64,000 nucleotides of DNA from assembly GCF_024655565.1 (NCBI RefSeq), contig NZ_JANKOF010000001.1, positions 124,001 through 188,000 on the forward strand, given 5' to 3'. The stretch's first letter is position 1. Each line of letters opens with the position of its first letter. The notes under the pieces were generated by a model, which worked only from the letters and a program-made list of their open reading frames with translations, had not been told where the DNA came from and did not search any database. A program made the position numbers and the translations under genes. This document shows positions 4,533-44,111 of this stretch, piece by piece. This DNA is from Nitratireductor sp. ZSWI3. GTDB taxonomy: Bacteria > Pseudomonadota > Alphaproteobacteria > Rhizobiales > Rhizobiaceae.

Positions 4533-4557
4533 AACCAGCCGTTCGGAACAGTGTTCC
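4533..4557 (-). promoter_or_regulatory. EcfG-type (general stress) promoter candidate for the PEBP gene
   Basis: On the minus strand GGAAC (4557-4553), 16 bases, then GGTT (4536-4533), 35 bases before the ATG at 4498. It matches the GGAAC-N16/17-cGTT signature of alphaproteobacterial EcfG sigma factors except for the first base of the -10 box. Confidence 0.6.
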
Positions 4558-4567
4558 GCGCCGGGCA

Positions 4568-4592
4568 CGAACAAATTCGGTGCTGCACGGTT
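4568..4592 (+). promoter_or_regulatory. Weak EcfG-type promoter candidate for the 66-aa hydrophilic protein
   Basis: CGAAC (4568-4572), 16 bases, GGTT (4589-4592), 56 bases before the ATG at 4648. One mismatch in the -35 box; it overlaps the opposing PEBP promoter region back to back. Confidence 0.35.
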
Positions 4593-4647
4593 TGAGCAGA
4601 GAAGTCGACTGACGGTCGGAAACCGTCGAGGCGCGGAGGAAGCGAAG

Positions 4648-4848
4648 ATGGCGAGCACGAAGCATTCCAAGTTCAAGACACCCACCGACAAGGACCTGAA
4701 GCGGAATCCGGGCATCGGGACGTCGCCGGGCACGAGTAAGGGCGGCGATCTGCTCGATGGCGAAAACACCTTCGAGGGCGATGTCCGCAATGACACGACA
4801 TCGGCCGGCGGTGTCCGGCGCGGCGAGACCGGGCGCACCAACAAGTAA
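4648..4848 (+). CDS. Small hydrophilic protein of 66 residues, function unknown
   Basis: The ATG at 4648 is preceded by a strong ribosome site (GGAGGAAGCGAAG). The product is very polar, rich in Gly, Thr, Lys and Asp, with no predicted membrane segment and almost no bulky hydrophobics, so probably unstructured and hydrophilin-like. Its gene lies 56 bases upstream of the Pcm-esterase fusion in the same direction and could share its transcript. I do not recognise a named family. A weak stress-type promoter lies upstream. Reality of the gene rests on the ribosome site, codon pattern and spacing. Confidence 0.7.
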   Translation: MASTKHSKFKTPTDKDLKRNPGIGTSPGTSKGGDLLDGENTFEGDVRNDTTSAGGVRRGETGRTNK

Positions 4849-4904
4849 GCGCACGAGCCCGTGCCGCCTCCACAGGTCCAGCCATGGCAGCGAGGGAGTT
4901 TGAG

Positions 4905-8307: not shown

Positions 8308-8334
8308 GGAACAAACTTCGCGGGTCGTTGTTCC
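8308..8334. promoter_or_regulatory. Palindromic EcfG-type promoter element between divergent small genes
   Basis: On the plus strand GGAAC (8308-8312), 16 bases, TGTT (8329-8332). Because the element begins GGAACA and ends TGTTCC, the minus strand reads GGAAC (8334-8330), 16 bases, TGTT (8313-8310). Plus-strand use would serve the gene at 8401, 68 bases away; minus-strand use would give a nearly leaderless message for the gene starting at 8300. Confidence 0.6.
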
Positions 8335-9171: not shown

Positions 9172-9771
9172 TCAGGCAGAGGCCAGCCGGTTGCACTCCT
9201 TCAGATCTCGAACGAATCGCCCATATTCGCGCTCTCGATCGCCTCGGTCGCGGATTCTCAGCAGGAAGGAAGGATGGACCGTCACATAGACGGGCACTTC
9301 GCAGACGTCTTTCAGAAGACGGCCGCGCAGCTCGGAGACCTTCCCGGGACGCGAGGCCATGCCGCGAAAGGCGGTCGCTCCCATGGCAACGGCCAGTTGG
9401 GGCGCGACCAGTTCGAACTCCTTCGTCAGCCACCATCGGCAGCGGTCGATCTCGTAAGCATTCGGCCGCTTGTGAAGACGCCGCTTGCCGCGCTGGTCAT
9501 GCTTGAAGTGCTTCACGCTGTTGGTCAGGAACACCTCCTCCCGGCGAAGTCCGGCTTCCGCCATCGCCGTGTCCAGGAGCCGGCCCGCCGGCCCGACAAA
9601 GGGTATCCCTTCCAGATCCTCCTTGTCGCCCGGCTGCTCGCCGACCAGCATCAGCCTGGCTTTCGGGTCTCCTGCACCGGAAACGGCCTGTGTCGCGTCA
9701 CGCCACAGGGGACAGCGCCGGCAATTCGCTTCCTCCCTTTCCAGTTCGTCAAGTTCTCGGCTGATGCTCAC
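9172..9771 (-). CDS. UdgX-type uracil-DNA glycosylase (family 4-like, covalent uracil-site binder)
   Basis: This 199-residue DNA repair enzyme shows the family-4 cysteines of the 4Fe-4S cluster (NCRRCPLW near residue 17, later conserved Cys), the active-site GEQPGDKED and FVGPAGRLLD. It also has the UdgX-specific loop GKRRLHKRP, where the His of KRRIH in characterised UdgX forms a covalent link to the abasic site after uracil removal. Here Leu replaces Ile, a conservative change. The C-terminal VHPSFLLR motif is present. The start is GTG at 9771. Family membership is firm; covalent trapping is inferred from the KRR-x-H loop. Confidence 0.9.
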   Translation of the reverse strand: MSISRELDELEREEANCRRCPLWRDATQAVSGAGDPKARLMLVGEQPGDKEDLEGIPFVGPAGRLLDTAMAEAGLRREEVFLTNSVKHFKHDQRGKRRLHKRPNAYEIDRCRWWLTKEFELVAPQLAVAMGATAFRGMASRPGKVSELRGRLLKDVCEVPVYVTVHPSFLLRIRDRGDREREYGRFVRDLKECNRLASA

Positions 9772-10018: not shown

Positions 10019-10042
10019 GATCGCCTCTTCGATTGAATGCGG

Positions 10043-10067
10043 AACCAGACAGGTCGCCGAATGTTCC
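10043..10067 (-). promoter_or_regulatory. EcfG-type promoter of the 53-aa membrane protein gene
   Basis: On the minus strand GGAAC (10067-10063), 16 bases, GGTT (10046-10043), 24 bases before the ATG at 10018 with the ribosome site in between. The plus strand also reads GGAAC (10041)-N16-TGTT (10062), which would run antisense into the end of otsB; no gene is assigned to that direction. Confidence 0.65.
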
Positions 10068-10110: not shown

Positions 10111-10890
10111 TCATGCGGGATCCCGCGCGGCTCTCACCAGTTGCGCGAGCCAGCGGTGGAACGCGGTGGTGTCCGGCAGCCGGTAGCGCGCGCATGTGTC
10201 GCCGGGGCCGATCTTGATCGTTATTCCGTTCTGATGGTCGAGACTGGCGAAACCGTCTTCATCGGTGGCATCGTCTCCGGCAAAAAGGGGGCGGCGTCCG
10301 GCAAACGGCTCCACCGCCATGAAGGCCGCCAGGGCATCGCCCTTGGTGCGGCTGGCGGCCTTGAACTCGATCACCATCTTCCCGTGCACGATCGAAATGT
10401 CCTTGCATCGGCGGGCGATCTCCCCGGCCATCGCCTCGCACTCGGCGGCAAGATCGGGACGCTGGCGATAATGAAGCGAGAGCGACGCCCATTTCGTTTC
10501 AACGAGCAGCCCATCGTGGCGGGCGGCGAACGCCATGACGATGTCCCGTGCGGCTTCGAGGCTTTTGCCTGCGATCCGCACTCTTTGCGTTGTGCCGTCG
10601 GGACGGCGCCACTCGAGGCCGTGCACGCCGGCAAGGGCCGGCCGAAGAGGCGCGAGGCGGCGGTCGAGATCTGAGACTTCGCGTCCCGACACGATGGCCA
10701 GCGCGCCTCCCGAGAGCGCCAGCAACGCCTCAAGATCCGCCAGGACGTCACGTGTGATGCATGCCTTCGCGGGATCCTCGACGATCTCCGCCAGCGTGCC
10801 GTCGAAATCGAAAAAAAAGGCGGTCCGGGAAACATCCGGCATGCCCGGTGGAACGAGATGGGGGGAAGGCCGTTCGATATGTGATGTCAT
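10111..10890 (-). CDS. otsB: Trehalose-6-phosphate phosphatase
   Basis: This HAD-superfamily phosphatase of 259 residues dephosphorylates trehalose-6-phosphate to trehalose. Motif I FFFDFDGTLAEI (nucleophile Asp), motif II AIVSGREVSDL, a Lys in motif III and motif IV FAGDDATDEDGF are all present, and GVHGLEWRRPDG is the OtsB substrate region. The start at 10890 is preferred to the in-frame ATG at 10914, because the promoter -10 box covers 10918-10915 and the latter codon would precede the transcript start. The synthase otsA lies 16 kb away and has the same promoter type, so the pathway is split but probably co-regulated. Confidence 0.93.
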   Translation of the reverse strand: MTSHIERPSPHLVPPGMPDVSRTAFFFDFDGTLAEIVEDPAKACITRDVLADLEALLALSGGALAIVSGREVSDLDRRLAPLRPALAGVHGLEWRRPDGTTQRVRIAGKSLEAARDIVMAFAARHDGLLVETKWASLSLHYRQRPDLAAECEAMAGEIARRCKDISIVHGKMVIEFKAASRTKGDALAAFMAVEPFAGRRPLFAGDDATDEDGFASLDHQNGITIKIGPGDTCARYRLPDTTAFHRWLAQLVRAARDPA

Positions 10891-10914: not shown

Positions 10915-10939
10915 AACAGGTCATGTGCCGGAAGGTTCC
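10915..10939 (-). promoter_or_regulatory. EcfG-type promoter of otsB
   Basis: On the minus strand GGAAC (10939-10935), 16 bases, TGTT (10918-10915), 24 bases before the chosen ATG at 10890. Confidence 0.65.
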
Positions 10940-12299: not shown

Positions 12300-12635
12300 C
12301 TGAGGGGACCGTTGAAGGGCACGCTTGGCAGCCGCAGCGACATGTTGATGCGAACCGAACCGGCGGAAAAGGCGGTGATCTCGGTCTACGGTATCCGCGG
12401 GATCGGGTCGTTCTACTATCTCGCCTACGCGCTGGGGCAGGCCCGGTTCGAGGAGGCGGACACGCTCTGGCTCGTCGTCTGCCTGGTGGTCCTCTTCTCC
12501 ATCGTCCTGCATGGAACCACCGTCACCGCCGTGATGGTGGCCATCGACCACCGCAACGGCCGCGCCTCATCGGCCGAGAACACACGCGTCAAGCAGCCCG
12601 ACCGTCGCTCCTCCCCAGAACACCGCCACGAGTGA
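12300..12635 (+). pseudogene. C-terminal fragment of a CPA1-type cation/proton antiporter
   Basis: Immediately after the TIGR02588 stop, another frame reads EKAVISVYGIRGIGSFYYLA, then a long hydrophobic helix and FSIVLHGTTVTAVMV. This matches, from memory, the last two membrane helices of NhaP-like Na+/H+ antiporters (pattern GxRGxGSxYYLxYAL ... VHGxTVTPxM). A full antiporter has about 400 residues and 12-13 helices; only the last 90-100 residues remain, without a plausible start, and the frame overlaps the 3' end of the opposite gene by 69 bases. It is best read as a deletion remnant joined to the TIGR pair. Confidence 0.65.
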
Positions 12636-12950
12636 CAGGAATGCGAGAATGCGTGCGATGCCGTCCGTCGGCCGGTCCCGCCGGGGCGGCGCCGGCTGGC
12701 CGAACGCGCCGGCGCAGCGTTCCTGCCAGACGAGGAAACAGACAAGCAGAACCGCCGTAAGAGCCGTGGCGGCGAGGACAACCACGTCGGATATCCACGG
12801 CGCGCCGCCGCGCGCGCAGACCAGCGTGTGGCCGCCATAGGCGAGGGTGAACTGCACGGCCCAGACGAGTGGGCCGAACAGCATGTAGACGAGGGTGCCG
12901 GTGGTCGACGGCTTCGGCGCCGGGGGAAAGAAGGTGTTGCGCTTCGGCAT
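12567..12950 (-). CDS. Small membrane protein at the end of the cytochrome oxidase operon
   Basis: The 127-residue protein has three probable membrane helices (LVYMLFGPLVWAVQFTLAY, a VVVLAATALTAVLLVCFLVW segment and ILAFLSLVAVFWGGATVGLL). The ATG at 12950 lies one base after the CoxI-CoxIII stop, so it is the last gene of the operon. Small membrane proteins with this layout are common next to caa3-type oxidase genes, but I cannot name its family or role; assembly or accessory function is inferred from position only. Confidence 0.7.
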   Translation of the reverse strand: MPKRNTFFPPAPKPSTTGTLVYMLFGPLVWAVQFTLAYGGHTLVCARGGAPWISDVVVLAATALTAVLLVCFLVWQERCAGAFGQPAPPRRDRPTDGIARILAFLSLVAVFWGGATVGLLDACVLGR

Positions 12951-12951
12951 G

Positions 12952-15489
12952 TCAGCCCGCCACCCGCGGAAAACCATGCACCAGCACAAGCCCGAACAGG
13001 ATCTGCGCCGCCGCATATGTGTAGAGGACCGCAGCGTTGTCGAAGCTCACCCGCCGCACGCGATCGAGTTTGCCGGCGACCATGCGGGCGATCGCGAAGC
13101 CGATCATGACGATGAGGGCGAAGGCGAGCTGCCCGTTGAGCGCGCTTTGCATGTAGACCATGGCGCCGTAGGCATTGTCCGTCGGCCGCAATCCGCTTTG
13201 CCAGTGGGAAAGGATTTCCACCGCCACCGCGCCGGCGAGACAGAAGGCTGCAATTGCGTTGAGGAGAGGCTGCGCGACGCTGCGCCGGCCAGGGCCCGGC
13301 AGCCGGTTTCCGGCCGCACGTATCGCCAGCAGGCCGAGAATTGTCAGAAGGGCGCCGCCCACCGGCCAAACCGGCGCCGGCAGCGCCGGCGACCCGTGCG
13401 GCGCCCAGACGTCGGGGGAAACCACCCATAGATAAAGATAGGAGAAGACATAGGCGATGTAGAGCGAGGCGGTGACGAAGATCAGCACGATCATCGCCCA
13501 CCAGGAATGCGAGGAAGGGCCGCTCGCATAGGTGGGGAGCCTTATGCCCGCGCCGATGTCCACCTCACCTTTCGACGGCCCCGGATCGAGGCTCCAGGTC
13601 CAGGTGAGACAGGCGATGATGGCGATGACGCCGCAGGTCAGCGCCGGGATCACCAGCTTGACGGTCAGGAGCAGGAAGAAGGCCGCCGTGAAGATGGCGG
13701 CGAGAAGGTGCGCCCAGCCCGGCCCCGGCATGCGGATGATATATTGCGGCCTCGCCTCGATGGCCGAGGTGACGATCGTCTCGCGTTCGCCGGTCGGAGC
13801 ATTGGGCAGGAAATGATGCCCCTCGCTCACCTCCCGCGGCAGCGCGGGGCGGTCCCACAGGGGCTCGCGGCTGGTCACGAACGGGATGCTGCGTGTCGAG
13901 TAGACGTCGTTCGGCAGCCACTCCAGCGTGCCGGCCTTCCATGGGTTCTCCACCGTCGTGGGCGGGCGGCGGAGGCTGCGCACCAGGTCGACGACGAAGA
14001 TCAGGACGCCGAGCGCGAAGACATAGGCGCCGATGGTGGAGACGAGGTTCAACATGTCCCAGCCGACGCCTTCGGGGTAGGTCCACACCCGCCGCGGCAT
14101 GCCGCGCAGTCCGGTGAAGTGCATCGGAAAGAAAGCGATATTGAAGCCTGCGAACATGAGCCAGAAGACCCAGCGTCCGGCCCGTTCGGAGAGCATCCTC
14201 CGGGTCGCCATCGGCATCCAGTAGTAAAAGGTGGCGAACAGCGGGAAGACCATGCCGCCGACCAGCACATAGTGGAAATGGGCGACGACGAAATAGGTGT
14301 CGTGCACCTGGAAGTCGACCGGGACGAGCGCCACCATGACGCCGGTCAGCCCGCCGATGGTGAAGATGACGAGGAAACCGAGGACGAACAGGGATGGTGT
14401 CGTGATGCGGAAGCGGCCGCGGCTTGCGGCGATGGTGGCGATCCAGGAGAAGACCTGGATGCCGGAGGGCACGGCAACCGCCATGCTCGCCGCCGAGAAG
14501 AAGGCGAGGCTCAGCGAGGGGATGCCGGTGGTGAACATGTGGTGCACCCACAGTCCGAAGGAGAAGAAGCCGGTGCCGATCAGCGCCACCACGATCAGCC
14601 GGTAGCCGACCAACGGTCGCTGGGCCATGGCCGGCACGATCATCGACACGAGGCCGGCCGCCGGCAGGAAGATGATGTAGACCTCCGGATGGCCGAAGAA
14701 CCAGAAGAGGTGCTGCCAGAGCAGCGGATCGCCCCCCTTGGCCGCGGTGAAGAACGGCCATCCGAAGGAACGCTCGATCTCGAGCAGCATCGTGCCGAGG
14801 ATCACCGCCGGAAACGCGAACATGATCATGCTGGCGAAGACCAGCATCGACCAGGCGAAGATCGGCATCTTGGTGAGCGACATGCCCGGCGGGCGGGTGC
14901 GCAGCGTCCCGACGACGATCTCGATCGCCCCCGCAATGGCCGAAATCTCGATGAAGCCGATGCCGAGCAACCAGAAATCGGCATTGTCGCCCGGCGAAAA
15001 TTCCTTCAGCGTCAGCGGCGTGTACATGAACCAGCCGCCCTGAGGCGCAAGGTCGTAGAAGATGGTCGAGAAGAACACCAGGCCGCCGACCACATAGGCC
15101 CATATGGCGAAGGCGCTGAGGCGGGGGAAGGGCAGGTCGCGGGCGGCGAGCATCTGCGGCAGAAGCATCACGCCCAGCGCTTCCACGGCAGGCACGGCGA
15201 ACAGGAACATCATCGTCGTTCCGTGCACGGTGAAGATCTGGTTGTAGAGCCCCTGGCTCAGGAAGTCGTTCTCCGGCACGGCGAGCTGCGTCCGCATGAC
15301 GAGCGCCAGCACGCCCGCCAGCAGGAAGAACAGGAAGGCCGCGCCGATGTAGAACAGGCCGATCACCGTGTTGTTGACGGCCGTGACGATCTTGTAGCCG
15401 CGCGGCGTCGCCCAGACACGCAGGAGCTCGTCCACCTCTCCCTTCGGGCGCGGTTCGGGATTGGGAAGCTGCGGCCGGCGATCGGTCAT
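12952..15489 (-). CDS. Cytochrome c oxidase subunit I-subunit III fusion
   Basis: This 845-residue proton-pumping terminal oxidase core belongs to the aa3/caa3 heme-copper family. The subunit I part (about 1-560) has the haem a ligand in FTVHGTTMMFLF, the CuB/Tyr motif WFFGHPEVYIIFLP (His, cross-linked Tyr and the D-channel Glu of A-type oxidases), HH in LWVHHMFTTG and both haem ligands in DTYFVVAHFHYVL. The subunit III part (about 600-845) supplies further helices, including SSHSWWAMIVLIFVTASLYI. Such fusions are a known arrangement in caa3-type operons. The start at 15489 overlaps the upstream antiporter stop by four bases. Confidence 0.94.
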   Translation of the reverse strand: MTDRRPQLPNPEPRPKGEVDELLRVWATPRGYKIVTAVNNTVIGLFYIGAAFLFFLLAGVLALVMRTQLAVPENDFLSQGLYNQIFTVHGTTMMFLFAVPAVEALGVMLLPQMLAARDLPFPRLSAFAIWAYVVGGLVFFSTIFYDLAPQGGWFMYTPLTLKEFSPGDNADFWLLGIGFIEISAIAGAIEIVVGTLRTRPPGMSLTKMPIFAWSMLVFASMIMFAFPAVILGTMLLEIERSFGWPFFTAAKGGDPLLWQHLFWFFGHPEVYIIFLPAAGLVSMIVPAMAQRPLVGYRLIVVALIGTGFFSFGLWVHHMFTTGIPSLSLAFFSAASMAVAVPSGIQVFSWIATIAASRGRFRITTPSLFVLGFLVIFTIGGLTGVMVALVPVDFQVHDTYFVVAHFHYVLVGGMVFPLFATFYYWMPMATRRMLSERAGRWVFWLMFAGFNIAFFPMHFTGLRGMPRRVWTYPEGVGWDMLNLVSTIGAYVFALGVLIFVVDLVRSLRRPPTTVENPWKAGTLEWLPNDVYSTRSIPFVTSREPLWDRPALPREVSEGHHFLPNAPTGERETIVTSAIEARPQYIIRMPGPGWAHLLAAIFTAAFFLLLTVKLVIPALTCGVIAIIACLTWTWSLDPGPSKGEVDIGAGIRLPTYASGPSSHSWWAMIVLIFVTASLYIAYVFSYLYLWVVSPDVWAPHGSPALPAPVWPVGGALLTILGLLAIRAAGNRLPGPGRRSVAQPLLNAIAAFCLAGAVAVEILSHWQSGLRPTDNAYGAMVYMQSALNGQLAFALIVMIGFAIARMVAGKLDRVRRVSFDNAAVLYTYAAAQILFGLVLVHGFPRVAG

Positions 15490-16556
15490 GAGCCGCCGTC
15501 CCGCAGCGTGTAGAGGAGCACAACGCCGCCCGTATAGACGATGAGCACGAGCAGCGAATCGTAACCCATGCGCAGGATGGACTTGTCCTTTCGTTCCGCC
15601 AGGCCCGCCTGGAACAGTGCCGTCAGCACCACCGCGAGCAGCGCCCCGAAAACGGGAAACGATCCGAGGCGGCCGATGACGGGCTCTCCCTGATCGAGCA
15701 GATCGACCAGGAAGATCAGGGCGACGTTGATGAGATTCGTGCCGAGGATGTCGGAGATCGCCATGGTGAAGAGACCGCGCCTGGCGGCCGAGACAGCCGT
15801 GCTCAGCTCCGGCAGCGAGGTGGCCAGCGCCACGAGCACGAAGCCGACAAAACTCGATCCCAATCCGCTCTGCTGGGCGATCGCCTCGCCGGTTTCGGCC
15901 AGGACATAGCCTGCGACGAGAATCGCCGCCGCTGCAGCTGCGGTTCTCCAGAGCAGGCTGCGAAGGTCCGGCGCGGACTTGCGCCCCGCCGCGGTCTTTT
16001 CTTCCTGCACCTCGATCAGGCCATGTGCCACGTGTCCGTCTTCGGCGGCCAGCCACGGCTTCCGTCCCTCGGCGCGCGAAAGGATGCGCACGCAGGCGAG
16101 ATAAGCCAGGAGCGCGCCCCAGCTCCACAGGCCGACCCCGAGAACATTGACGTCGCCCACCACCATCGCTGCTGCGGCCGCCGAGATCAGAATCACGTTG
16201 AGGCTGCCCTGCAGGAGCACGGTCGGCTCGGGAACGACCGCCGTCAGAGCGTCCTTGCCGATGAAGACGTCGACGATTGCGAGCAGGGCGACCTGCAGGG
16301 CGATGCTGCCGAACAGATTGTTGACCGCCAGTGCCGCGTTGCCGTCGAGGGAGGCGGTCGCGGTCACTCCGATTTCGGGCAGCGAAGTGACACCCGCCAG
16401 CAGCACGATGCCGATGGTCGCCTGGCCGATGCCGGTCGCGCGGCTGATCGCGTCGGCATAGTAGGCCAGACGGCTGCCGACCGACCAGACGACCACGGCG
16501 GCCACGGCGAACAGCAAAAAATTGACCGGCAATCCGAACTGGGTGAAATCGATCAA
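15486..16556 (-). CDS. CaCA-superfamily sodium/calcium-type cation exchanger
   Basis: This 356-residue membrane antiporter has the two inverted alpha-repeats that define the family: LLAGVTSLPEIGVTA with NNLFGS, and LVALATSLPELSTAV with SDILGTNLINV. There are about ten helices and a central polar loop. It starts with TTG at 16556, overlapping the CoxII stop, and its own stop overlaps the CoxI-III start, so it is translated as an integral part of the oxidase operon. Its placement between subunits II and I is unusual and suggests a link between electron transport and cation or proton balance; the ion is not determinable. Confidence 0.88.
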   Translation of the reverse strand: MIDFTQFGLPVNFLLFAVAAVVVWSVGSRLAYYADAISRATGIGQATIGIVLLAGVTSLPEIGVTATASLDGNAALAVNNLFGSIALQVALLAIVDVFIGKDALTAVVPEPTVLLQGSLNVILISAAAAAMVVGDVNVLGVGLWSWGALLAYLACVRILSRAEGRKPWLAAEDGHVAHGLIEVQEEKTAAGRKSAPDLRSLLWRTAAAAAAILVAGYVLAETGEAIAQQSGLGSSFVGFVLVALATSLPELSTAVSAARRGLFTMAISDILGTNLINVALIFLVDLLDQGEPVIGRLGSFPVFGALLAVVLTALFQAGLAERKDKSILRMGYDSLLVLIVYTGGVVLLYTLRDGGS

Positions 16557-18597: not shown

Positions 18598-18599
18598 GC

Positions 18600-19172: not shown

Positions 19173-19248
19173 GACGGGTCAACGACGAGGCCGGCCTATT
19201 GTTCCTCCGCGCCTGCCGGTGTCTCCGGCGCGGGCGATGCATGGCGTT

Positions 19249-19869: not shown

Positions 19870-19942
19870 GGATCAGTCTCGCTGGTGTTGGATCGGACCT
19901 AACCGCGCTGCCCACCATCAGTTCCGATACGGGCGATCCCTG

Positions 19943-30579: not shown

Positions 30580-30588
30580 GGCACTGCC

Positions 30589-32130
30589 ATGGCGCGAAGG
30601 AAGGCCGAGACCCTGCTTCAGAAATACCGTGCCAAACGCGACTTTTCGAAGACGCGCGAGCCCGACCATCGCGCGGCGCGGGGCCGCAGGGGCGGCACAC
30701 TTTCTTATGTGGTCCAGAAGCATGACGCGACCCGCCTCCATTATGATTTCCGCCTGGAGTGGGACGGTGTTCTCAAGAGCTGGGCGGTGACGCGGGGGCC
30801 GAGCCTCGACCCTTCGGAAAAGCGGCTGGCCGTGCGCACGGAAGACCACCCGCTGTCCTATGGCGGTTTTGAAGGCACCATACCCGAGGGTCAGTACGGC
30901 GCCGGAACGGTGATGCTGTGGGACAGGGGCAACTGGCAGCCGGAGAACGACCCCGAGAAGGGGCTCAAGGAGGGCAAGCTCTCCTTCACCCTTGATGGAG
31001 AGCGCCTCAAGGGCCGCTGGTCGCTCGTGCGGATGTCGGGCGAGCCGGGCGAGAAGCGGGAGAACTGGCTGCTGATCAAGAGCAAGGACAAGGAAGCCTC
31101 GCAGCATGGCGACGTGCTCAGGAAGCACACGAAAAGCGTCGAGAGCGGCAGCACGATGCACGGCATCGCCGCTGCGGCGAGCCCGGCGCCGAAGTGGCGC
31201 GAGCCGCAGCTCGCCACGCTGGTGAGCGAAGCGCCGCAGGGCGATGATTGGCTGACCGAGATGAAATACGACGGCTATCGCACGCTGATCGCCATCGGGA
31301 CGGGAACGGCGCACGTCTACACGCGGCGGGGCCAGGACTGGACCGATCGCTTCGCGCCGATCGCCAAGGCCGCAGCGGCGCTGCCGACCGCCGGCACGCT
31401 CCTCGACGGCGAGATCGTCGCCTTCGATGCCAAAGGCAAGACCGATTTCTCGGCATTGCAGAAGGCCCTGTCGGGGGGAGGCGCCATCTCCTGCTTCGTC
31501 TTCGACCTTCTCGTCGAGGGCGAGGTGGATCTGACGGACCGGCCGCTCGAGGAGCGCAAGCGGCGGCTCCAGAAGCTGCTGGGGCCGAAAAGCGGGCCGT
31601 TGATCTTCTCCGATCATGTGCGCGGGCATGCGGCCGAGGTGCTGCGGAAACTTTGCGGGGCAGGGCACGAGGGTGTCGTCGCCAAACGCGCCTCCAGCCC
31701 CTACCGGTCGGGCAGAGGCACCGCCTGGCTGAAGGTGAAATGCACCAGAAGGCAGGAATTCGTCATCGTCGGCTATTCGCCCTCCGACAAACCCGGTCGC
31801 CCCTTCGCCTCGCTGCTGCTCGGCGCCTATGAGGGCGAGCGCCTCGCCTACAGGGGGCGGGTGGGAACCGGCTTCGACGGCGAGACGTCTGCCGAGCTCG
31901 CGCGCGCCTTCGGGAGCCGCCGGCGAAAGACGCCGTCTCTCAGCGGCGTTCCCCGGGAGATCGCCCGCACCGCCCGCTGGACGAGACCGGATCTGGTGGC
32001 CGAGATCGAGTTCACGGAGCTTACGGCCGACGGGTTTCTTCGTCACGGTGTCTTCAAGGGATTGCGCCGGGACAAGGACCCGAAGCATGTGGTGCTCGAA
32101 AAGCCGCGCAACCTGCGCGCCCTGTCCTGA
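30589..32130 (+). CDS. ligD: LigD-type ATP-dependent DNA ligase with phosphoesterase domain, no polymerase domain
   Basis: This 513-residue end-joining ligase has an N-terminal 3'-phosphoesterase domain (about 1-170: VVQKHDATRLHYDFRLEWDG, GPSLDPSEKRLAV, FEGTIPEGQYGAGTV). The ATP-dependent ligase domain (about 205-510) has the adenylated Lys in LTEMKYDGYRTLI, DGEIVAFD, FVFDLL, EGVVAKR, AWLKVKC and the OB-fold end VAEIEFTELTADGFLRHGVF. The primase/polymerase domain of full LigD (about 850 residues) is absent; other genes may supply it elsewhere. Operon with ku, spacing nine bases. Confidence 0.94.
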   Translation: MARRKAETLLQKYRAKRDFSKTREPDHRAARGRRGGTLSYVVQKHDATRLHYDFRLEWDGVLKSWAVTRGPSLDPSEKRLAVRTEDHPLSYGGFEGTIPEGQYGAGTVMLWDRGNWQPENDPEKGLKEGKLSFTLDGERLKGRWSLVRMSGEPGEKRENWLLIKSKDKEASQHGDVLRKHTKSVESGSTMHGIAAAASPAPKWREPQLATLVSEAPQGDDWLTEMKYDGYRTLIAIGTGTAHVYTRRGQDWTDRFAPIAKAAAALPTAGTLLDGEIVAFDAKGKTDFSALQKALSGGGAISCFVFDLLVEGEVDLTDRPLEERKRRLQKLLGPKSGPLIFSDHVRGHAAEVLRKLCGAGHEGVVAKRASSPYRSGRGTAWLKVKCTRRQEFVIVGYSPSDKPGRPFASLLLGAYEGERLAYRGRVGTGFDGETSAELARAFGSRRRKTPSLSGVPREIARTARWTRPDLVAEIEFTELTADGFLRHGVFKGLRRDKDPKHVVLEKPRNLRALS

Positions 32131-32176: not shown

Positions 32177-32201
32177 GGAACTTCCTGGCTGTGACGGGGT
32201 T
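32177..32201 (+). promoter_or_regulatory. EcfG-type promoter of the DUF427 operon
   Basis: GGAAC (32177-32181), 16 bases, GGTT (32198-32201), 108 bases before the ATG at 32310. It would start a transcript for DUF427, the 96-aa protein and the AI-2E family permease. Confidence 0.5.
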
Positions 32202-34800: not shown

Positions 34801-34825
34801 AACCAGCGGGTGCGGGAAATGTTCC
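34801..34825 (-). promoter_or_regulatory. EcfG-type promoter of the flavodoxin-like gene
   Basis: On the minus strand GGAAC (34825-34821), 16 bases, GGTT (34804-34801), 87 bases before the ATG at 34713. Confidence 0.55.
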
Positions 34826-34860: not shown

Positions 34861-34885
34861 GGAACATTCCCGATGCCGCTCGGTT
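34861..34885 (+). promoter_or_regulatory. EcfG-type promoter of the 66-aa membrane protein
   Basis: GGAAC (34861-34865), 16 bases, GGTT (34882-34885), 69 bases before the ATG at 34955; back to back with the minus-strand site 36 bases to the left. Confidence 0.55.
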
Positions 34886-35230: not shown

Positions 35231-35986
35231 CTAGATCGCAGGCAGTGCCAGCTCCACCAGCACGGGCAGATGATCCGATGCAACCCGGGACAACGGGGTG
35301 TCGATCACCTCGGCGCGGCGGGAGGTGAGCCCATTGCGCATGAAGACGTGGTCGATCCTGATCAGCGGCAGGCGGGCGGGGAAGGTCGCCGCGCCCCTCA
35401 GCGTGGGGCCGGTGTGCGTTTCCTCAAAGGAGCGCGTCAGGTGGCGATAGGAAAGGGACCAGGGCACGGCGTTGAAATCGCCAAGAAAGACGGTGGGAAG
35501 GTCCCGTATGTTCGGATGGTCCAGCCATTCCGATCCCAGAAGCTCCGCAACCTGCCGTCTGCGTTCCCTGCGCCGCAGCCCGAGATGGGTGTTCGCGACG
35601 ACCAGCTCGACGCCGTGTGTCTTCACCATCCCCAGGATCGCACCGCGCGGTTCGCCGATCGAGGGCAAGGCGCCGGCCTTCAGCACGGTCAGCGGCAGCC
35701 CGGTCATGATGGCGTCGCCGTATCGCTCCTCGCCGAGATGCAGCGCGGGATGAAAATGCGAGCGGATATTGAGCGTGCGGGCGATCGCCTCGGCCTGGTC
35801 GACGGCGCCGCTCCTCGATCGCCCCACATCCACTTCCTGCAGCGCGATGATGTCGGCCTGGCAGGCGGCGATGACGGCGGCGATGCGGGCCGGATCGATG
35901 CGCCGGTCGTTGCCTTTGCAGCCGTGCACATTGTAGGTCAGGACGCGGATCTGCGCGCCGGCGGCGGTGCTTGGATCAGATGTCAT
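35231..35986 (-). CDS. Endonuclease/exonuclease/phosphatase family protein (YbhP-like)
   Basis: This 251-residue metal-dependent phosphodiesterase-like enzyme has IRVLTYNVHGCKGNDRRIDP, DIIALQEVDVGR (metal Glu), VVANTHLGLRRRERR, VFLGDFNAVPWS (Asp/Asn active site), IRIDHVFMRN and the catalytic SDHLPVLVEL. It lacks a signal peptide. With the UPF0104 protein and the PLD enzyme that follow it forms the same trio as E. coli ybhP-ybhN-clsB, so it probably acts on phospholipid or nucleotide substrates in membrane remodelling. Confidence 0.86.
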   Translation of the reverse strand: MTSDPSTAAGAQIRVLTYNVHGCKGNDRRIDPARIAAVIAACQADIIALQEVDVGRSRSGAVDQAEAIARTLNIRSHFHPALHLGEERYGDAIMTGLPLTVLKAGALPSIGEPRGAILGMVKTHGVELVVANTHLGLRRRERRRQVAELLGSEWLDHPNIRDLPTVFLGDFNAVPWSLSYRHLTRSFEETHTGPTLRGAATFPARLPLIRIDHVFMRNGLTSRRAEVIDTPLSRVASDHLPVLVELALPAI

Positions 35987-35992
35987 AAGATG

Positions 35993-36019
35993 GGAACATC
36001 CACACGGCCTCCTCGTTCC
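35993..36019. promoter_or_regulatory. Consensus EcfG-type promoter, palindromic, between ybhP-like and ybhN-like genes
   Basis: Plus strand GGAAC (35993-35997), 16 bases, CGTT (36014-36017), 30 bases before the ATG at 36048. The element ends CGTTCC, so the minus strand also reads GGAAC (36019-36015)-N16-TGTT (35998-35995), which would give a nearly leaderless message for the gene starting at 35986. Confidence 0.65.
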
Positions 36020-36047
36020 ACCGCAATGATGCTCAACAGACAATGCA

Positions 36048-36986
36048 ATGTCGTATCGCCGGTCGCTCCTTAGCTTTCTGATGGCGGCGGCGATTTGCGG
36101 TGCGCTCTATTTCCTCTACCACGCAGTCGACCGCTATGGAGCAGGACGCATCGCAGGCCTCATCGGAACCTTGCCGGTCGCGCGGCTTGCGGCAGCAGCG
36201 GCATTCGCGGCGGCATCGTATCTGTGCCTTGCTGGGTTCGATTATTTCGGCGTTCGCTATGCCGGCAAGCCGCTGCCTTATCGCAAGACCCTGCTCGCCT
36301 CTTTCGTCGGCCTGTCGATCGGCCACAATGTCGGTGTGGCGGGGCTCAGCAGCGGTGCCGTGCGCTATCATTTCTACGCCCGGTCGGGCCTGACCCTTGC
36401 CGATGTGGCGAAGGTCATCGTGTTCTCCGGCGTGTGTGTCGCTTGCGGCCTGTCGACCATCGCCGGCGTCGGCATTCTTCTCCAACCGGCGCAGGCGCGG
36501 GCGCTCGTCGAGGTGGATCGCAGCGTCATGTTTTTCGTGGGGTGGCTTTGCGTGGCCTTGCCCTGGGCCTACGTCCTGATGACGGTTCTCCTACGCCATC
36601 GGATACTGATCTGGCGGTGGCATTTCGCCCTGCCGGAGCCGCGCCTGGCGATCTGGCAGGTGGTGCTCGGAAGCGTCAATTTCGCGCTCGTGGCCGCCTG
36701 CCTGCACCAACTCGTCAGCAGTCTGGCCCAGGTGCCCTATGTGAAGGTGTTGGCGGTTTATGCGATCGGCCAGATCGCCGGGGTGTTGAGCCATGTGCCC
36801 GGCGCCCTGGGGGTGCTCGAGGCGTCGGTTCTCTACCTGCTCCCCGGCGCGCCATCGCTGGCTGCCTTGGTCGCCTTCCGGGTGGTGTATTTCTTCGTGC
36901 CGTTGCTGGTCGGGATCCTCGTGTTTCTCTTGAGCGAGGGGCTTCGGGCCGTGGGCCTGTCCCATCATTCCGGCACGGCGGACTAG
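36048..36986 (+). CDS. Lysylphosphatidylglycerol-synthase-like membrane protein (UPF0104, YbhN type)
   Basis: The 312-residue protein has about eight membrane helices, lacking the cytoplasmic synthetase domain of MprF. Family marks: YLCLAGFDYFGVRYAGKPLP, LLASFVGLSIGHNVGVAGLS, GAVRYHFYARSGL and the C-terminal GQIAGVLSHVPGALGVLEAS. Such proteins are thought to move or flip phospholipids or to help cardiolipin synthases. Here it is divergent from the YbhP-like gene and convergent with the PLD gene. A perfect stress-type promoter precedes it. Confidence 0.87.
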   Translation: MSYRRSLLSFLMAAAICGALYFLYHAVDRYGAGRIAGLIGTLPVARLAAAAAFAAASYLCLAGFDYFGVRYAGKPLPYRKTLLASFVGLSIGHNVGVAGLSSGAVRYHFYARSGLTLADVAKVIVFSGVCVACGLSTIAGVGILLQPAQARALVEVDRSVMFFVGWLCVALPWAYVLMTVLLRHRILIWRWHFALPEPRLAIWQVVLGSVNFALVAACLHQLVSSLAQVPYVKVLAVYAIGQIAGVLSHVPGALGVLEASVLYLLPGAPSLAALVAFRVVYFFVPLLVGILVFLLSEGLRAVGLSHHSGTAD

Positions 36987-37001
36987 CAACAAGACCGTGC
37001 G

Positions 37002-38495
37002 CTAGGATTTGTGCCCGAACAGCATCCCCTTCAGAGCCCGCAACCATCGCCGCAGGCGCAGCAACGGTTGCCATGGCCGGCGCGGATCGAGCAGGGCCGT
37101 TGCCGGCAACGGATCGAGCTCGCCGCCCATCGAGCCTATGGGAACTGGCTCCAGCCTTCGCTTTTGGGTGTTGAGCCGGTCCAGGGCGGCCAGCATGGAG
37201 CCTGTCTGGGCAATTTCCGATGCCACGCTGCCGGCATCGCTTCCCAGATGCTCGGCGAGCAGCCGGTTTCTCAGCCCGGCGATGGCCCGGCGCTGCCGTG
37301 GCGTTTGCGCCTCGAAGGCAATGTCGCACTCCGAATCGAAGCCCTCCGAGCGATTGTTGAGGTTCGACGAGCCGACGCGAGCCAGCACGTCGTCAACGAC
37401 GATGACCTTGGAGTGGATGAGGATTTCCGCTCTTTTGCCGTCGCCGGCCTCGGTCGTCGCGTAGAGCACACGGAGCCGATGGTGGCGATCGGCGCGCTTG
37501 AGCCGGCGGATCACGCGGTTGCGATTGTGCGCCATCACGAACTGCTCGAGAAGGCCACGCGAGCTTTTGGTGAGAATGATCAGGATCTCGGGACCGTCCG
37601 GCCGCTGCAGAGAGGCGCGCAACTGCCGGGCGACACGGAACGAAGCGAAATACTGGGTCTCGATGTACAGGCTGTGCTTTGCGGCCGCCAGCGCGGCATC
37701 CGTGAGTTTGGCCGCCTCCCGACGCATCCTTATCCCCAGGCGCGGCGGCTGCGTTCTGGCTATGGCGACCGGGCAATCGAGGAGATCGGGCGCAAGGTTC
37801 GTCGGCCATGGTGGACGACTTGGGCTGTCGAGCGGTGCCAGGCTTTCCCCCGTCGCGCGCCGCCACCGCGCTGCGGCGATTTCCGAAAGCGCTCTCGCCG
37901 CCGCCCCGCAGACCATGGCCTGCACATCGTGCACCGGCGAATATGCCTCGCCGGACGGCTTCCTGCGCCATCGCCAGGGCACCGGATGGTCCGAGCTGTC
38001 CCAGCGCCCGGCGGTCAGGTCGATCCCGCCGACAAACGCCGTTCGGTCATCGACGCAGACAAGCTTCTGGTGATGCGATGCGCGCAGCGGGTGCCGATGG
38101 TCGAAGACCAGGGAGATGCGGGGGTGGTCCGCCCATTCACGCTCGCGAAAGACCTTGAGCGATCTGCCGGAGTAAAGCGGGCCGTAGGCCCAGATCAGCA
38201 CCCGGATTTCCAGGGCCGGGCGCTGTTCGACGAGCTGGCGCAGGAAGCAGCCCAGCGTCGGCGCGTCCGCCTGGCGCGGCGAAAGCTTGATCCACGGATT
38301 GAAGTCCCAGCCGAGGATCCAGATTCGCCGTTCGGCGAGAGGCAGCGTCTGCACAAGCGCGTCGAAATAGGCCTCCCCGTCGATCAGGAAGGCCGACCGG
38401 CTGCTTTTCTCGATCCTCCAGCAGTTCTCGCCCTGGCGGGCGATCCGGCCACGCTTGTGAAAAGCCGGCGCTGCCTGTTCACTGCGCAACAGCAT
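37002..38495 (-). CDS. Phospholipase D / cardiolipin synthase family protein (ClsB-like)
   Basis: This 497-residue enzyme has two HKD catalytic motifs: SHHQKLVCVDDRTAFVGG (about residue 145) and LIHSKVIVVDDVLARVGSSN (about residue 375), each followed by the expected GG/SSN turn. The region IWILGWDFNPWIKL resembles other bacterial PLD/Cls proteins. No signal peptide; one hydrophobic segment near the C-terminal end is weak, so it is probably peripheral. The likely reaction is phosphatidyl transfer forming cardiolipin or phospholipid hydrolysis. The ATG at 38495 overlaps the stop of the 42-aa gene by 17 bases. Confidence 0.86.
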   Translation of the reverse strand: MLLRSEQAAPAFHKRGRIARQGENCWRIEKSSRSAFLIDGEAYFDALVQTLPLAERRIWILGWDFNPWIKLSPRQADAPTLGCFLRQLVEQRPALEIRVLIWAYGPLYSGRSLKVFREREWADHPRISLVFDHRHPLRASHHQKLVCVDDRTAFVGGIDLTAGRWDSSDHPVPWRWRRKPSGEAYSPVHDVQAMVCGAAARALSEIAAARWRRATGESLAPLDSPSRPPWPTNLAPDLLDCPVAIARTQPPRLGIRMRREAAKLTDAALAAAKHSLYIETQYFASFRVARQLRASLQRPDGPEILIILTKSSRGLLEQFVMAHNRNRVIRRLKRADRHHRLRVLYATTEAGDGKRAEILIHSKVIVVDDVLARVGSSNLNNRSEGFDSECDIAFEAQTPRQRRAIAGLRNRLLAEHLGSDAGSVASEIAQTGSMLAALDRLNTQKRRLEPVPIGSMGGELDPLPATALLDPRRPWQPLLRLRRWLRALKGMLFGHKS

Positions 38496-41255: not shown

Positions 41256-41280
41256 AACCAGCAGGCGAGCCAACTGTTCC
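41256..41280 (-). promoter_or_regulatory. EcfG-type promoter of the 45-aa membrane protein
   Basis: On the minus strand GGAAC (41280-41276), 16 bases, GGTT (41259-41256), 27 bases before the ATG at 41228. Confidence 0.6.
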
Positions 41281-41306: not shown

Positions 41307-41331
41307 GGAACAAAATATTCGCGCGGCGGTT
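41307..41331 (+). promoter_or_regulatory. EcfG-type promoter of the SDR gene
   Basis: GGAAC (41307-41311), 16 bases, GGTT (41328-41331), 28 bases before the ATG at 41360; divergent from the 41256-41280 site. Confidence 0.62.
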
Positions 41332-41359
41332 GGGCGGGCTGACCATGAAGGGAGCTTCC

Positions 41360-42232
41360 ATGGAAGAGCATCCGCAACAGGACTATCCGGCTCCGCCGTT
41401 CGCACGACAGCAGCAGGAGCGGCCGGGCGAGACCGCGAAGATGGATCCGCTGCCCGATCACGGAGAGCACAGCTACAGGGGAAGCGGCCGTCTGAGGGAC
41501 CGGGTGGCGTTGATCACCGGCGGCGATTCGGGCATCGGCCGCGCGGTGGCGATTGCCTTTGCACGCGAGGGAGCCGATGTCGCGATCTCGTATCTGAGCG
41601 AAAACAGCGATGCGAAGGAAACCGCGCGGTGGGTGGAGGATGCAGGGCGCAAAGCCCTGCTCCTGCGGGGAGACATCGCCGAGGAGAAGCACTGCAAGCA
41701 GCTGGTGCAGCGAACCGTCCAGGAACTCGGCCGATTGGACATACTGGTCAACAACGCGGCCTACCAGGCCAGCTATGAGACCCTGGAGGAGATAACGGCG
41801 GTGGGCTGGGAGCTCACCTTCCGCACCAATGTCCATGCCATGTTCTATCTCTGCAAGGAGGCGCTCCGGCACATGAAGCCGGGTTCGGCGATCATCAACA
41901 CGTCGTCGATCAATGCCAGCGACCCTTCGCCCTCCCTGCTGGCCTATGCGACGACCAAAGGGGCGATCTCCAACTTCACTGCGGGCCTGGCCGGGCTCGT
42001 GGCGGAGCGGGGCGTGCGCGTCAATGCCGTCGCACCGGGACCCATATGGACGCCCCTGATACCATCCACCATGCCCGCCGAGCGGGTCGAGAACTTTGGC
42101 GCCAACACGCCGATGAAACGGCCGGGCCAACCGGCTGAGCTCGCGGCCACCTTCGTGCTTCTGGCCTCGCCGGAGTCCAGCTACACGACCGGTGCGGTGA
42201 TCGAGGTCACCGGCGGCCGTCCCATGTTGTAG
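41360..42232 (+). CDS. Short-chain dehydrogenase/reductase (YghA/YhxC-like)
   Basis: The 290-residue NAD(P)-dependent oxidoreductase has a 45-residue N-terminal extension typical of this SDR branch (QQDYPAPPFARQQQE, MDPLPDHGEHSYRGSGRL), the cofactor site ALITGGDSGIGRAVAIAFAR, DILVNNAAYQ, catalytic Ser/Tyr/Lys (INTSSINA ... LAYATTKGAI) and VNAVAPGPIWTPLIP. Such SDRs are often general-stress genes in soil bacteria. The ATG at 41360 has AGGGAG before it; 41345 is a weaker alternative. Substrate unknown. Confidence 0.93.
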   Translation: MEEHPQQDYPAPPFARQQQERPGETAKMDPLPDHGEHSYRGSGRLRDRVALITGGDSGIGRAVAIAFAREGADVAISYLSENSDAKETARWVEDAGRKALLLRGDIAEEKHCKQLVQRTVQELGRLDILVNNAAYQASYETLEEITAVGWELTFRTNVHAMFYLCKEALRHMKPGSAIINTSSINASDPSPSLLAYATTKGAISNFTAGLAGLVAERGVRVNAVAPGPIWTPLIPSTMPAERVENFGANTPMKRPGQPAELAATFVLLASPESSYTTGAVIEVTGGRPML

Positions 42233-42297
42233 ATCGAATGACGGACAGCAGCCATGGCACCCCGCAAACCAGATGCCAATCCCGCACCGGGATATTT

Positions 42298-43962
42298 TCA
42301 TGGATGGGGCGGCTCAGCCGGCCGGCCGGCGACGGTGGCGGTCTCGCGGATATTCTCCGTCACGTCGTGGAATTCATAGAGCTTGCCGTCGTTCGGGAAG
42401 GCGATGACGCGGTCCGGCAGCAACGGGAAATTCGCGCCGAAATAGGCGTTGAAGATGAGCCGGTAGCTGTTGACCGGTGTGATGTCGTCGCGCAGCAGGT
42501 CATAGTCCCTGTTAGGGAAGTAATAGGCATTCAGAATGCCGGTCTTGACGCGCAGCTCCTCTGCCTGTGCCTCCTGCCAGGGAACCCGGCCGTCACGCTC
42601 GGGGAACGGGCCTTCGTCGGCCTGGATGAGGATGATGGGCGGCGGCCGGCCCTTGCTCAAAAGCGTGTTGACGATCTCCTTGATGATCAGGTTCGCGTAG
42701 CTGATCTGCTCGATATAGCCTTGGCGCTCGCCGCGCCGCGCCGATTCTGCCTGGCTCAGGCAGCGCCCGTCGGGGGCGAAATTGTAGGGGCCGTGCGGCA
42801 CGAGGAAGTGGCCGAAGACGTAGAGAGGCCCCTCGTGCTCGGCGAGCGCCTTGATCTCCTCCACCTGCGGGCCGACGCGCTGGCACTGCGCATTGTCCCA
42901 GTCGAGGCGCATGGTGAGCGGCGTCCTCGGCAGTATATGGAACAACGGCTTCAAGGCGGTGCGGCGCAGATACAGCATCTCGAATTCGCTGAATCCGTGC
43001 GGGCGGTTGGCGTCGGCGTAGGGATTGTTGTAGGTGCCGACCCACCAGGAGCCGAACTGGACAAGTTCGTAGCCGGACGATTTCAGAACACGGGCGACCC
43101 GGTGTTCGTCCAGCATGGCGTATATCGGATGCCAGTTGCGGTCTGAAATGCGCGCGTCCCCTTCCAGCAGGCCGAGATAATCCATGTAGAAGGTCGTGGC
43201 CAGGGAGTGTCCGGTCTTCTGGTAGTTCGAGTTGCTGGCACGGGCGACGTAAAAGCCCTGCCCCTCGAGAAAGCGCCCGATGGCAGTGTTGTCGAGATCG
43301 TAGTGGCGCTGGAGCACGTCTTCGTTTGCATAGCGGTCGAACACGAAATGAAAGATGTCGGGCGGGCGCGCCGCGGGGCCTTTCGCTCCCCGAGGGGGAA
43401 GATATTGCGCGATCTCCGCCATCGCCCGGTCGGCGTCGTAGACGTCGCGTGCAGCTCCGTTGCGCCATTCATAGGTGGCTGCCTGCCAGGCCGGATTGGC
43501 GAGCAGGACGACGGCGATACCGGTGAGCACGCTGTGAACGCCGAGCGCCGCCCTGCGCAGAAGCACTGCCAGGAGTGTGGCCAGAACCAGCGCGGCCAGG
43601 GCGAACGGCAGCGACCGCACCATGGAAAAGCCACCGTCCACTAGGCCGTTCGCACGCTCGAACAGACCCGCATAGAAGAGGCAGCCGACCACCCAGATGC
43701 TCGTGATCACCGCCGTAAGGCGGTCGAAGCGGCGGCGCATCAGCGCCGTGGCAAGATAGATGGCAAGCGTGAAGAGGAAGGTGCCGGCGAGCGCGGGCAG
43801 CACGTCGATGAAGGTCGTGTAGTCGAGGTTCCGCGCCATCATCGCCATGACCGAGGCGGCGGCGAAGAGAAACGGATGGAGCGGCCACGAGCCGTCCCAT
43901 CTGCGCCGGGGTTGCAGTGCGGAAACGGGCTCGGCGCGCGCCCTCTGGGAAGCTTTGGCCAT
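42298..43962 (-). CDS. Membrane-bound sulfatase-like (alkaline phosphatase superfamily) hydrolase/transferase
   Basis: The 554-residue protein has about five membrane helices in the first 170 residues (from HPFLFAAASVMAMMAR to ALGVHSVLTGIAVVLLANPA) and a periplasmic enzyme domain with DIFHFVFDRYANEDVLQRHY, SNYQKTGHSLATTFYMDYL (likely Thr nucleophile), FGHFLVPHGPYNFAPDGRC and ILIQADEGPFPER (metal-binding residues). Relatives modify lipids or polysaccharides with phosphoryl or sulfuryl groups. It is divergent from a small membrane protein and a NoeA-like methyltransferase, a common envelope-modification arrangement. The start at 43962 has AAGGGG before it. Confidence 0.83.
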   Translation of the reverse strand: MAKASQRARAEPVSALQPRRRWDGSWPLHPFLFAAASVMAMMARNLDYTTFIDVLPALAGTFLFTLAIYLATALMRRRFDRLTAVITSIWVVGCLFYAGLFERANGLVDGGFSMVRSLPFALAALVLATLLAVLLRRAALGVHSVLTGIAVVLLANPAWQAATYEWRNGAARDVYDADRAMAEIAQYLPPRGAKGPAARPPDIFHFVFDRYANEDVLQRHYDLDNTAIGRFLEGQGFYVARASNSNYQKTGHSLATTFYMDYLGLLEGDARISDRNWHPIYAMLDEHRVARVLKSSGYELVQFGSWWVGTYNNPYADANRPHGFSEFEMLYLRRTALKPLFHILPRTPLTMRLDWDNAQCQRVGPQVEEIKALAEHEGPLYVFGHFLVPHGPYNFAPDGRCLSQAESARRGERQGYIEQISYANLIIKEIVNTLLSKGRPPPIILIQADEGPFPERDGRVPWQEAQAEELRVKTGILNAYYFPNRDYDLLRDDITPVNSYRLIFNAYFGANFPLLPDRVIAFPNDGKLYEFHDVTENIRETATVAGRPAEPPHP

Positions 43963-44086
43963 CAAGGCACCCCTTCCGCCTCCGCCCCCGCAGGACGCGG
44001 TCCTACACAAATCTCAAAACGCTAGGATGGTTCCGAGGCGATCACATCTTTTGCGACAGATTTATGACAATTTTATAACGCGCAGG

Positions 44087-44111
44087 GGAACGTCTCGGTT
44101 ACGATGACGTT
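44087..44111 (+). promoter_or_regulatory. Consensus EcfG-type promoter of the NoeA-like operon
   Basis: GGAAC (44087-44091), exactly 16 bases, CGTT (44108-44111), 48 bases before the ATG at 44160. It is the rightmost stress-type site in the window. A short AT-rich stretch (about 44040-44080) precedes it. Confidence 0.72.

Follow-up and report, generated by a model that had tools for sequence, protein, structure and literature searches.

In surveys by others, about half of the alphaproteobacterial genomes encode more than one EcfG sigma factor, and the authors of the Rhizobium etli study stated that a satisfactory explanation of the extra copies was lacking (PMC3892343). R. etli EcfG2 (PF00052) is a non-canonical sigma factor of the ECF15 (extracytoplasmic function) group encoded on a plasmid, an accessory replicon; no adjacent phyR or anti-sigma gene is reported, and a stress function has been shown by others (PMC3892343, PMC3188799). 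In Sinorhizobium meliloti, rpoE5 is a direct target of RpoE2, which raises expression from the mapped promoter GGAAC-N16-CATT (PMC6180224), and activation of rpoE5 by RpoE2 is likewise reported in PMC3616915. In Caulobacter (SigU), Sphingomonas, Sphingopyxis and Methylobacterium, a second EcfG acts under, above or beside the first; a published tree places both copies of Caulobacter and Sphingomonas with R. etli EcfG1, outside the EcfG2 subgroup (PMC3892343), and the literature examined describes no promoter island for the paralogues of these four genera. Here, we analyzed 64,000 nucleotides of Nitratireductor sp. ZSWI3 ("the window"; C1:124001-188000 of the 5.21-Mb draft genome), in which a gene for an EcfG2-type sigma factor lies within a cluster of EcfG-like promoter sites. 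With a probability of about 70%, we read this locus as an accessory island for general stress, organized around a non-canonical EcfG2, placed under a core-EcfG1 cascade and equipped with a NepR-like inhibitor and a promoter class of its own.

Searching both strands for GGAAC-N16/17-NGTT, i.e. with 16 or 17 free bases between the two boxes, we found 27 sites in the window, spanning 3,997-44,111 (Table 1), compared to a mean of 2.04 and a maximum of 7 in 100 dinucleotide shuffles; the initial annotation of this DNA gave a chance expectation of about two at equal base frequencies. The whole genome contains 222 such sites and 180 matches to the backward-read motif used as control. Outside the window, 195 sites in 5.146 Mb correspond to about 2.4 per 64 kb, and the rest of contig C1 (190.5 kb) has 5 (backward control: 8). 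The best control is the spacing itself: GGAAC-Nk-NGTT (k=8-25) is found 25 times at N16, twice at N17 and 0-5 times at any other k. As a class, the two N17 sites, which the initial annotation had listed along with the others, do not exceed this background. Based on our gene calls, 23 of the 27 sites are intergenic, although 87.5% of the region from 3.8 to 44.2 kb is coding; the earlier statement that nearly all sites lie between genes stands with four exceptions in coding DNA. Four pairs represent one 27-bp palindrome each, read on both strands, which leaves 23 distinct places.

All 18 coordinates listed in the initial annotation were recovered, and nine sites had been missed (3997-, 10041+, 10850+, 19181-, 19901-, 25500+, 25502-, 28048+, 35995-). 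Contrary to the claim that the cox block is free of sites, one lies before each of the first two genes in the apparent operon (19901 and 19181), and full CGTT boxes number eight among the 25 N16 sites instead of four. A chance or compositional cluster would fit a few coding-DNA sites without a nearby start (28048, 25502) and the background level of both N17 sites. It is opposed by the shuffles, the wrong spacings, the backward motif, the neighbouring 190.5 kb and the orthologues in other genera described below; we rejected it as having a negligible probability, and the cluster is confirmed as real.

The sigma gene inside the island had been overlooked. Its product belongs to the EcfG family, with Sigma70_r2, Sigma70_r4_2 and PhyR_sigma2 all above the Pfam cut-off. 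The core phyR-nepR-ecfG locus of the same genome lies on C36, apart from the island, and its EcfG shares 45% identity with the window sigma. In a tree of 117 rows, the window sigma falls into a separate clade (98/93) together with the EcfG2 of an R. etli plasmid (IE4771 copy, L156) and is sister to L041 at 100/98, whereas EcfG1 from the core locus of this genome groups in another clade (99/84). A tree of 34 chosen rows including S. meliloti RpoE5 placed this protein within the EcfG2 clade at 100/98. No phyR was found in the island by the PhyR_sigma2 search, which gave five matches in the genome and, on C1, only the sigma factor itself. Two more PhyR_sigma2 proteins of the genome (G000:C61:28114 and C71:20459; L002, L003) belong to other clades of the sigma tree. 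Altogether, 14 EcfG1 rows are separated from 85 EcfG2 rows by 27 alignment columns, of which three are gapped in most EcfG1 rows; any of the columns might set promoter choice.

The site cluster recurs around related sigma genes. We took the best 80 of 103 relatives from a protein-only search (L040-L119); about 10 kb around each sigma gene, 1.56 Mb altogether, contained 510 sites compared to 96 backward controls, and 68 of the 80 loci had three or more. By spacing, these loci showed 397 sites at N16, 113 at N17 and 23-51 at others. Site density was 0.565/kb in the first 2 kb from the sigma gene and decreased to 0.170/kb at 8-10 kb; the small 10-12 kb bin had 0.264/kb. We also compared four 100-kb regions, from the metagenome-assembled genome (MAG) SP17, Stappia indica, Aquibium and Paramesorhizobium deserti, which contain 14, 38, 36 and 27 sites vs 6, 3, 5 and 8 controls; 13, 30, 33 and 24 of the sites fall in sigma-containing blocks of about 25, 41, 56 and 32 kb, respectively, and eight of those in Stappia belong to the EcfG1 side. 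In S. indica, the EcfG2 and EcfG1 genes lie at most 49 kb apart (G022:C9:548340-596757).

Of 58 window proteins, 20, 27, 24 and 24 have matches in the four regions, respectively; these counts include generic ABC ATPases and the sigma factor. The common gene pool of the regions, in shuffled order, comprises otsA, otsB, Ku, LigD, DUF427, topoisomerase IB, glycosylases, BON, DUF3008, SodC, PLD/EEP/LPG-synthase-like and cox genes as well as several small unknown genes. At 13 EcfG1 loci of relatives, only homologues of AI-2E (8), ABC ATPase (9), response regulator (10) and sigma factor (13) were found. We found no description of an EcfG gene island in the open-access literature, subscription papers being mostly outside this coverage.

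The promoters recur along with the genes. Taking orthologues that reach at least 40% length, we found a site in 98 of 247 upstream regions, compared to 5 with the backward motif and 49 on the opposite strand, divergent genes included. Collapsed to genus level by assigned genus labels (Mesorhizobium, Phyllobacterium and MAGs being split), a site is present in 74 of 163 gene-by-genus pairs vs 3.1 for wrong spacings. This proportion is high for u7959 (6/6), Ku (6/7), otsA (5/6) and SodC (3/3), and low for LigD (0/4), u11942 (0/4), AI-2E (0/3), u9857 (1/7), DUF3182 (1/5), SDR (2/11) and the NepR-like open reading frame (ORF; 0/5). A separate group of nine GGAAC-N16/17-NGTT sites occurs in 10.4 kb of Prosthecomicrobium (G023:C1:633835-644243), at neither the EcfG2 nor the best EcfG1 match.

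The sigma factor is patchily distributed. It is present in one of ten genomes of the genus (E<=1e-45). Within the order, matches at E<=1e-42 occur in at least 34 of 297 genomes and at least 19 of 123 genera, counting the ZSWI3 genome itself; these order-wide counts are lower bounds, with at most 10 candidates scored per genome, and the tree does not cover their weakest matches (44-48% identity). Related sigma factors and common island genes are also found on large plasmids of Chelatococcus and Paracoccus (another order). Patchy distribution and plasmid copies are marks of a mobile island, and the island may have been transferred. Alternatively, genes could have gradually accreted within the lineage under selection for clustering, without transfer, co-location of the sigma factor and its targets being a by-product. 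Such accretion would agree with the shuffled gene order between genera, the absence of tRNA genes from the window and its even content of guanine and cytosine (0.628-0.670 in 4-kb steps). No integrase was found among the Pfam-scanned proteins (872 to 45,868). An empty site was not demonstrable either: DNA of window positions 44441-54000 matched three of nine congeners, and the neighbouring genes initially labelled kdp are not syntenic in congener G003, where their counterparts show 43-68% identity and are not accompanied by the other neighbours seen in the window. Nevertheless, we regard accretion without transfer as somewhat unlikely, since both the patchy occurrence of the sigma factor and the plasmid copies speak against it.

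Taken as sets, core and island loci differ in their promoters, and we propose three classes: gCGTT at core EcfG1 loci, GGAACA...nGTT before island genes and CATT before ecfG2 itself. Compared to the EcfG target motif GGAAC-N16-CGTT, the island sites fit in the -35 element and the 16-bp spacing; canonical core loci, however, show gCGTT and some CATT, whereas the island has mostly [AGT]GTT, an A after GGAAC and an unconstrained first -10 base. At core EcfG1 loci, 0.88-0.89 of unique N16 sites have C at this position, and 0.68-0.69 have G before it. EcfG2 loci show no such constraint on the first base (C 0.30), and the base after GGAAC is A in 0.57 of their sites, compared to 0.20 at EcfG1 loci. 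With about one locus per genus (22 EcfG2, 17 EcfG1), C occurs in 42/141 vs 65/76 sites and A in 71/141 vs 11/76. In 13 genomes with both loci, C is found in 38/109 sites at the EcfG2 and 49/57 at the EcfG1 locus, and in the ZSWI3 genome itself all four core-locus sites are CGTT, compared to 8/25 in the island. [AGT]GTT occurs 279 times at N16 in the 80 EcfG2 loci, with 15-86 at eight other spacings (86 being N17), and 14 times in 25 EcfG1 loci, without enrichment over the 3-22 at other spacings. Across the ZSWI3 genome, the CGTT pattern has 46 matches vs 53 in the backward control; the core regulon is therefore not visible from this pattern alone.

We surveyed the promoter of ecfG2 within 200 nt upstream in 85 loci (the 80 loci, four plasmids and the window). 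GGAAC-N16/17-CATT is present in 69 of them, the window included, and 64 of these sites are N16; the remaining loci have CGTT (8), [AGT]GTT (2), another box (2) or none (L048, L065, L109, L156). Among 47 unique cores, G precedes C in 0.79 and A follows GGAAC in 0.02, so that the base preferences of this promoter are EcfG1-like. EcfG1 loci also contain CATT at N16 (21 vs 0-7 at other spacings), eight of these being a single orthologous site of the genus. We located the corresponding promoter of S. meliloti rpoE5 (SMb21484) on pSymB. The resemblance to S. meliloti extends to 54% sigma identity, to a NepR-like ORF at the side of RpoE5 and to homologues of DUF3008, CBS and cox1 near rpoE5, whereas fewer island genes than in the window are found there.

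A family of NepR-like small ORFs accompanies EcfG2 genes. It has 49 members, which come from the window and from 45 of 85 further EcfG2 loci (the 80 loci, four plasmids and S. meliloti), whereas the 25 EcfG1 loci have none. The members often lie just past the sigma gene in convergent orientation. The window ORF is below the Pfam NepR cut-off (14.5 bits vs 25.7, E 0.227), and hhalign of the family with canonical NepR gave 94.4% (E 9.4e-8, 29 columns) compared to 12.0% for the reversed control. The small protein may bind EcfG2 and act as its anti-sigma factor. An unannotated NepR-like ORF was reported beside S. meliloti rpoE5 (PMC6180224), and the S. meliloti family member adjoins rpoE5 at the same place; the two are presumably identical. 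A frame in the leader of the sigma gene (29159-29458) was dropped as NepR candidate, as it showed no visible likeness, judged by eye only.

These elements could be connected as follows. Upon stress, PhyR and NepR would release core EcfG1, which would transcribe ecfG2 from the conserved GGAAC-N16-CATT promoter; we propose this step mainly because of the mapped S. meliloti rpoE5 promoter and the position of RpoE5 in the EcfG2 clade, and the direction of the cascade in strain ZSWI3 is suggested by this analogy. The NepR-like protein would restrain EcfG2, and EcfG2 would read GGAACA-N15-NGTT promoters before neighbouring genes, its regulon being largely private; this assignment of promoter classes to sigma factors is inferred. 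Its targets would comprise trehalose synthesis, end joining, base-excision repair, superoxide dismutase, the oxidase operon, membrane genes and small unknown genes. Sequence evidence strongly supports the view of the region as a stress-response island whose genes are co-regulated, while the regulator probably differs from the one assumed with it, the general ecfG/phyR system, as the island has an EcfG2-type sigma of its own. Given this sigma factor, its putative NepR-like partner and the mostly non-CGTT promoters, an ecfG1 or phyR mutant alone would be insufficient as a test.

More generally, and with just under even odds in our estimation, EcfG2 sigma factors could be hubs of portable stress islands with a logic comparable to defence islands. 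A shuffled pool of stress genes would be kept together by the sigma factor with its dedicated NepR-like inhibitor and by a private promoter code, and a single conserved, EcfG1-readable GCATT promoter before ecfG2 would tie it to the core response of any host, the code being C-R-TT for EcfG1 and A after GGAAC with N-G-TT for EcfG2. If so, GGAACA with N-G-TT would be the missing EcfG2 motif; a 2021 review described the non-canonical promoter pattern as "yet to be determined" (PMC8103513). The comparison yields a concrete motif, a conserved ecfG2 promoter and a candidate inhibitor, and it lists unknown genes that share this regulation; the question of the extra EcfG copies thereby becomes testable.

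The island might instead be part of the ordinary EcfG1 regulon, with PhyR-NepR-EcfG1 reading all sites and EcfG2 being redundant or an amplifier. The CGTT boxes in the window would fit this, as would five of the 13 genomes with both loci, in which more than half of the sites are CGTT in the EcfG2 locus too, without clear class difference (G023 3/4, G027 5/7, G029 6/11, G032 6/9, G034 1/1). Furthermore, RpoE2 appears to directly control more than 100 S. meliloti genes, whereas overexpression of RpoE5 had nearly no effect, with a single putative target (PMC6180224), and EcfG1 and EcfG2 of Sphingopyxis granuli seem to have common targets (PMC8103513). On the other side, site density peaks beside the EcfG2 gene, and the enrichment of [AGT]GTT at N16 in EcfG2 loci is seen neither in EcfG1 loci nor in 800 kb of three congeners without EcfG2 (10, other spacings 10-18), a sample of little power because CGTT is hardly raised at N16 there (10 vs 2-12 elsewhere). 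We consider it improbable that EcfG1 reads all sites.

Besides the five CGTT-rich genomes, the RpoE5 overexpression result and the weak congener sample, several further observations weigh against the EcfG2 island model. The promoters of core loci may give an incomplete picture of the EcfG1 regulon; up to 14 different -10 boxes occur in general stress response promoters of Sphingopyxis (PMC7083833). GGAAC-Nk-CATT in the 80 EcfG2 loci shows a smaller, unexplained peak at N18 (30) beside N16 (81). In the window, 19.5 kb separate the NepR-like ORF from the sigma gene, and sites are rare or absent before orthologues of LigD (0/11), DUF3182 (1/12) and the NepR-like ORF (0/8). R. etli, too, does not fit the model well. 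The ecfG2 gene of the IE4771 plasmid (L156) lacks an upstream CATT, and no member of the NepR-like family was found within 20 kb of it. In Escherichia coli, the ecfG2 promoter of R. etli was not activated by EcfG1, although loss of ecfG1 halved ecfG2 expression (PMC3892343). The same study found no EcfG2 target motif, GGAAC-N16-CGTT being present at one of 19 EcfG2-dependent units. katG is EcfG2-dependent in R. etli CFN42 (PMC3892343), and no GGAAC site was found near the start of the katG-type gene on the IE4771 plasmid or in Rhizobium BK196; as an outside validation katG fails and counts against a simple motif rule. Although that study found no motif for EcfG2-dependent genes, 13 N16 sites lie within 20 kb of ecfG2 around L156 (pRetIE4771d), only one of them CGTT.

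Table 1. Features of the Nitratireductor sp. ZSWI3 window (window coordinates). Sites are GGAAC-N16-NGTT unless marked N17; distances (nt) are those from site to gene.
Feature	Position	Strand	Remarks
EcfG2-type ECF sigma factor, 196 aa	28514..29104	-	frame open to 29158; Pfam Sigma70_r2, Sigma70_r4_2, PhyR_sigma2
Putative promoter of sigma gene, GGAAC-N16-CATT, G before C	29161..29185	-	sole N16-CATT site in window
NepR-like small ORF, putative anti-sigma partner, 62 aa	8845..9033	-	family and profile comparison
PEBP-family protein	4031..4498	-	Pfam
Uracil-DNA glycosylase superfamily	9172..9771	-	Pfam
otsB, trehalose-phosphatase	10111..10842	-	Pfam
Apparent cytochrome oxidase operon: cox1, COX2-cytochrome c, cytochrome c, CtaG	12567..19869	-	Pfam; operon from strand and spacing only
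Methylpurine-DNA glycosylase	19943..20503	-	Pfam
Topoisomerase IB	20616..21677	+	Pfam
DUF3008 protein	22180..22341	-	Pfam
BON-domain protein	22466..23134	-	Pfam
Cu/Zn superoxide dismutase	23636..24154	-	Pfam
otsA, trehalose-phosphate synthase	26840..28330	-	Pfam GT20
Ku and LigD (end joining)	29737..32130	+	Pfam
EEP nuclease/phosphatase, LPG-synthase-like, PLD genes	35231..38495	both	Pfam; LPG-synthase match below cut-off
Site, CGTT	3997..4021	-	227 nt from GntR gene
Site of PEBP gene	4533..4557	-	35 nt
Palindromic pair (8308 + / 8310 -)	8308..8334	both	between divergent u8401 and u7959
Palindromic pair (10041 + / 10043 -)	10041..10067	both	- strand faces u9857
Site, CGTT, of DUF2391 gene	10850..10874	+	127 nt
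Site of otsB	10915..10939	-	73 nt
Site, CGTT, of ctaG in cox operon	19181..19205	-	ends 9 nt before ctaG
Site of u19249, head of apparent cox operon	19901..19925	-	ends 32 nt before u19249
Site, CGTT, of u21747	21695..21719	+	28 nt
Site, CGTT, of sodC	24405..24429	-	251 nt
N17 site of DUF3182 gene	24445..24470	+	29 nt; N17 class at background in window
Palindromic pair inside DUF3182 gene	25500..25526	both	+ strand faces hydrolase, 87 nt
Site in last codons of otsA	26852..26876	-	faces u26364, 126 nt
Site inside otsA	28048..28072	+	next start 1,407 nt off; probably chance
Site of otsA	28353..28377	-	23 nt
N17 site of u29479 and following Ku-LigD genes	29431..29456	+	23 nt; N17 class at background
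Site of DUF427 gene	32177..32201	+	109 nt
Site of FMN reductase gene	34801..34825	-	88 nt
Site of u34955	34861..34885	+	70 nt
Palindromic pair	35993..36019	both	between divergent EEP and LPG-synthase-like genes
Site towards PQQ-GDH gene	41256..41280	-	218 nt
Site of SDR gene	41307..41331	+	29 nt
Site, CGTT, of u44160	44087..44111	+	49 nt

The four palindromes of the window have the form GGAAC-N17-GTTCC, and two of them, 8308-8334 and 35993-36019, lie between divergent genes and could serve as single two-way promoters. We do not claim two-way promoters as a selected feature, since CC follows GTT in just 26 of the 397 N16 sites of the 80 loci (about 1/15). Based on Pfam, the apparent cytochrome oxidase operon includes a Na/Ca-exchanger-like gene (15486-16556), and a single gene at window positions 4884-6884 fuses a PCMT-type methyltransferase to an erythromycin-esterase-like domain.

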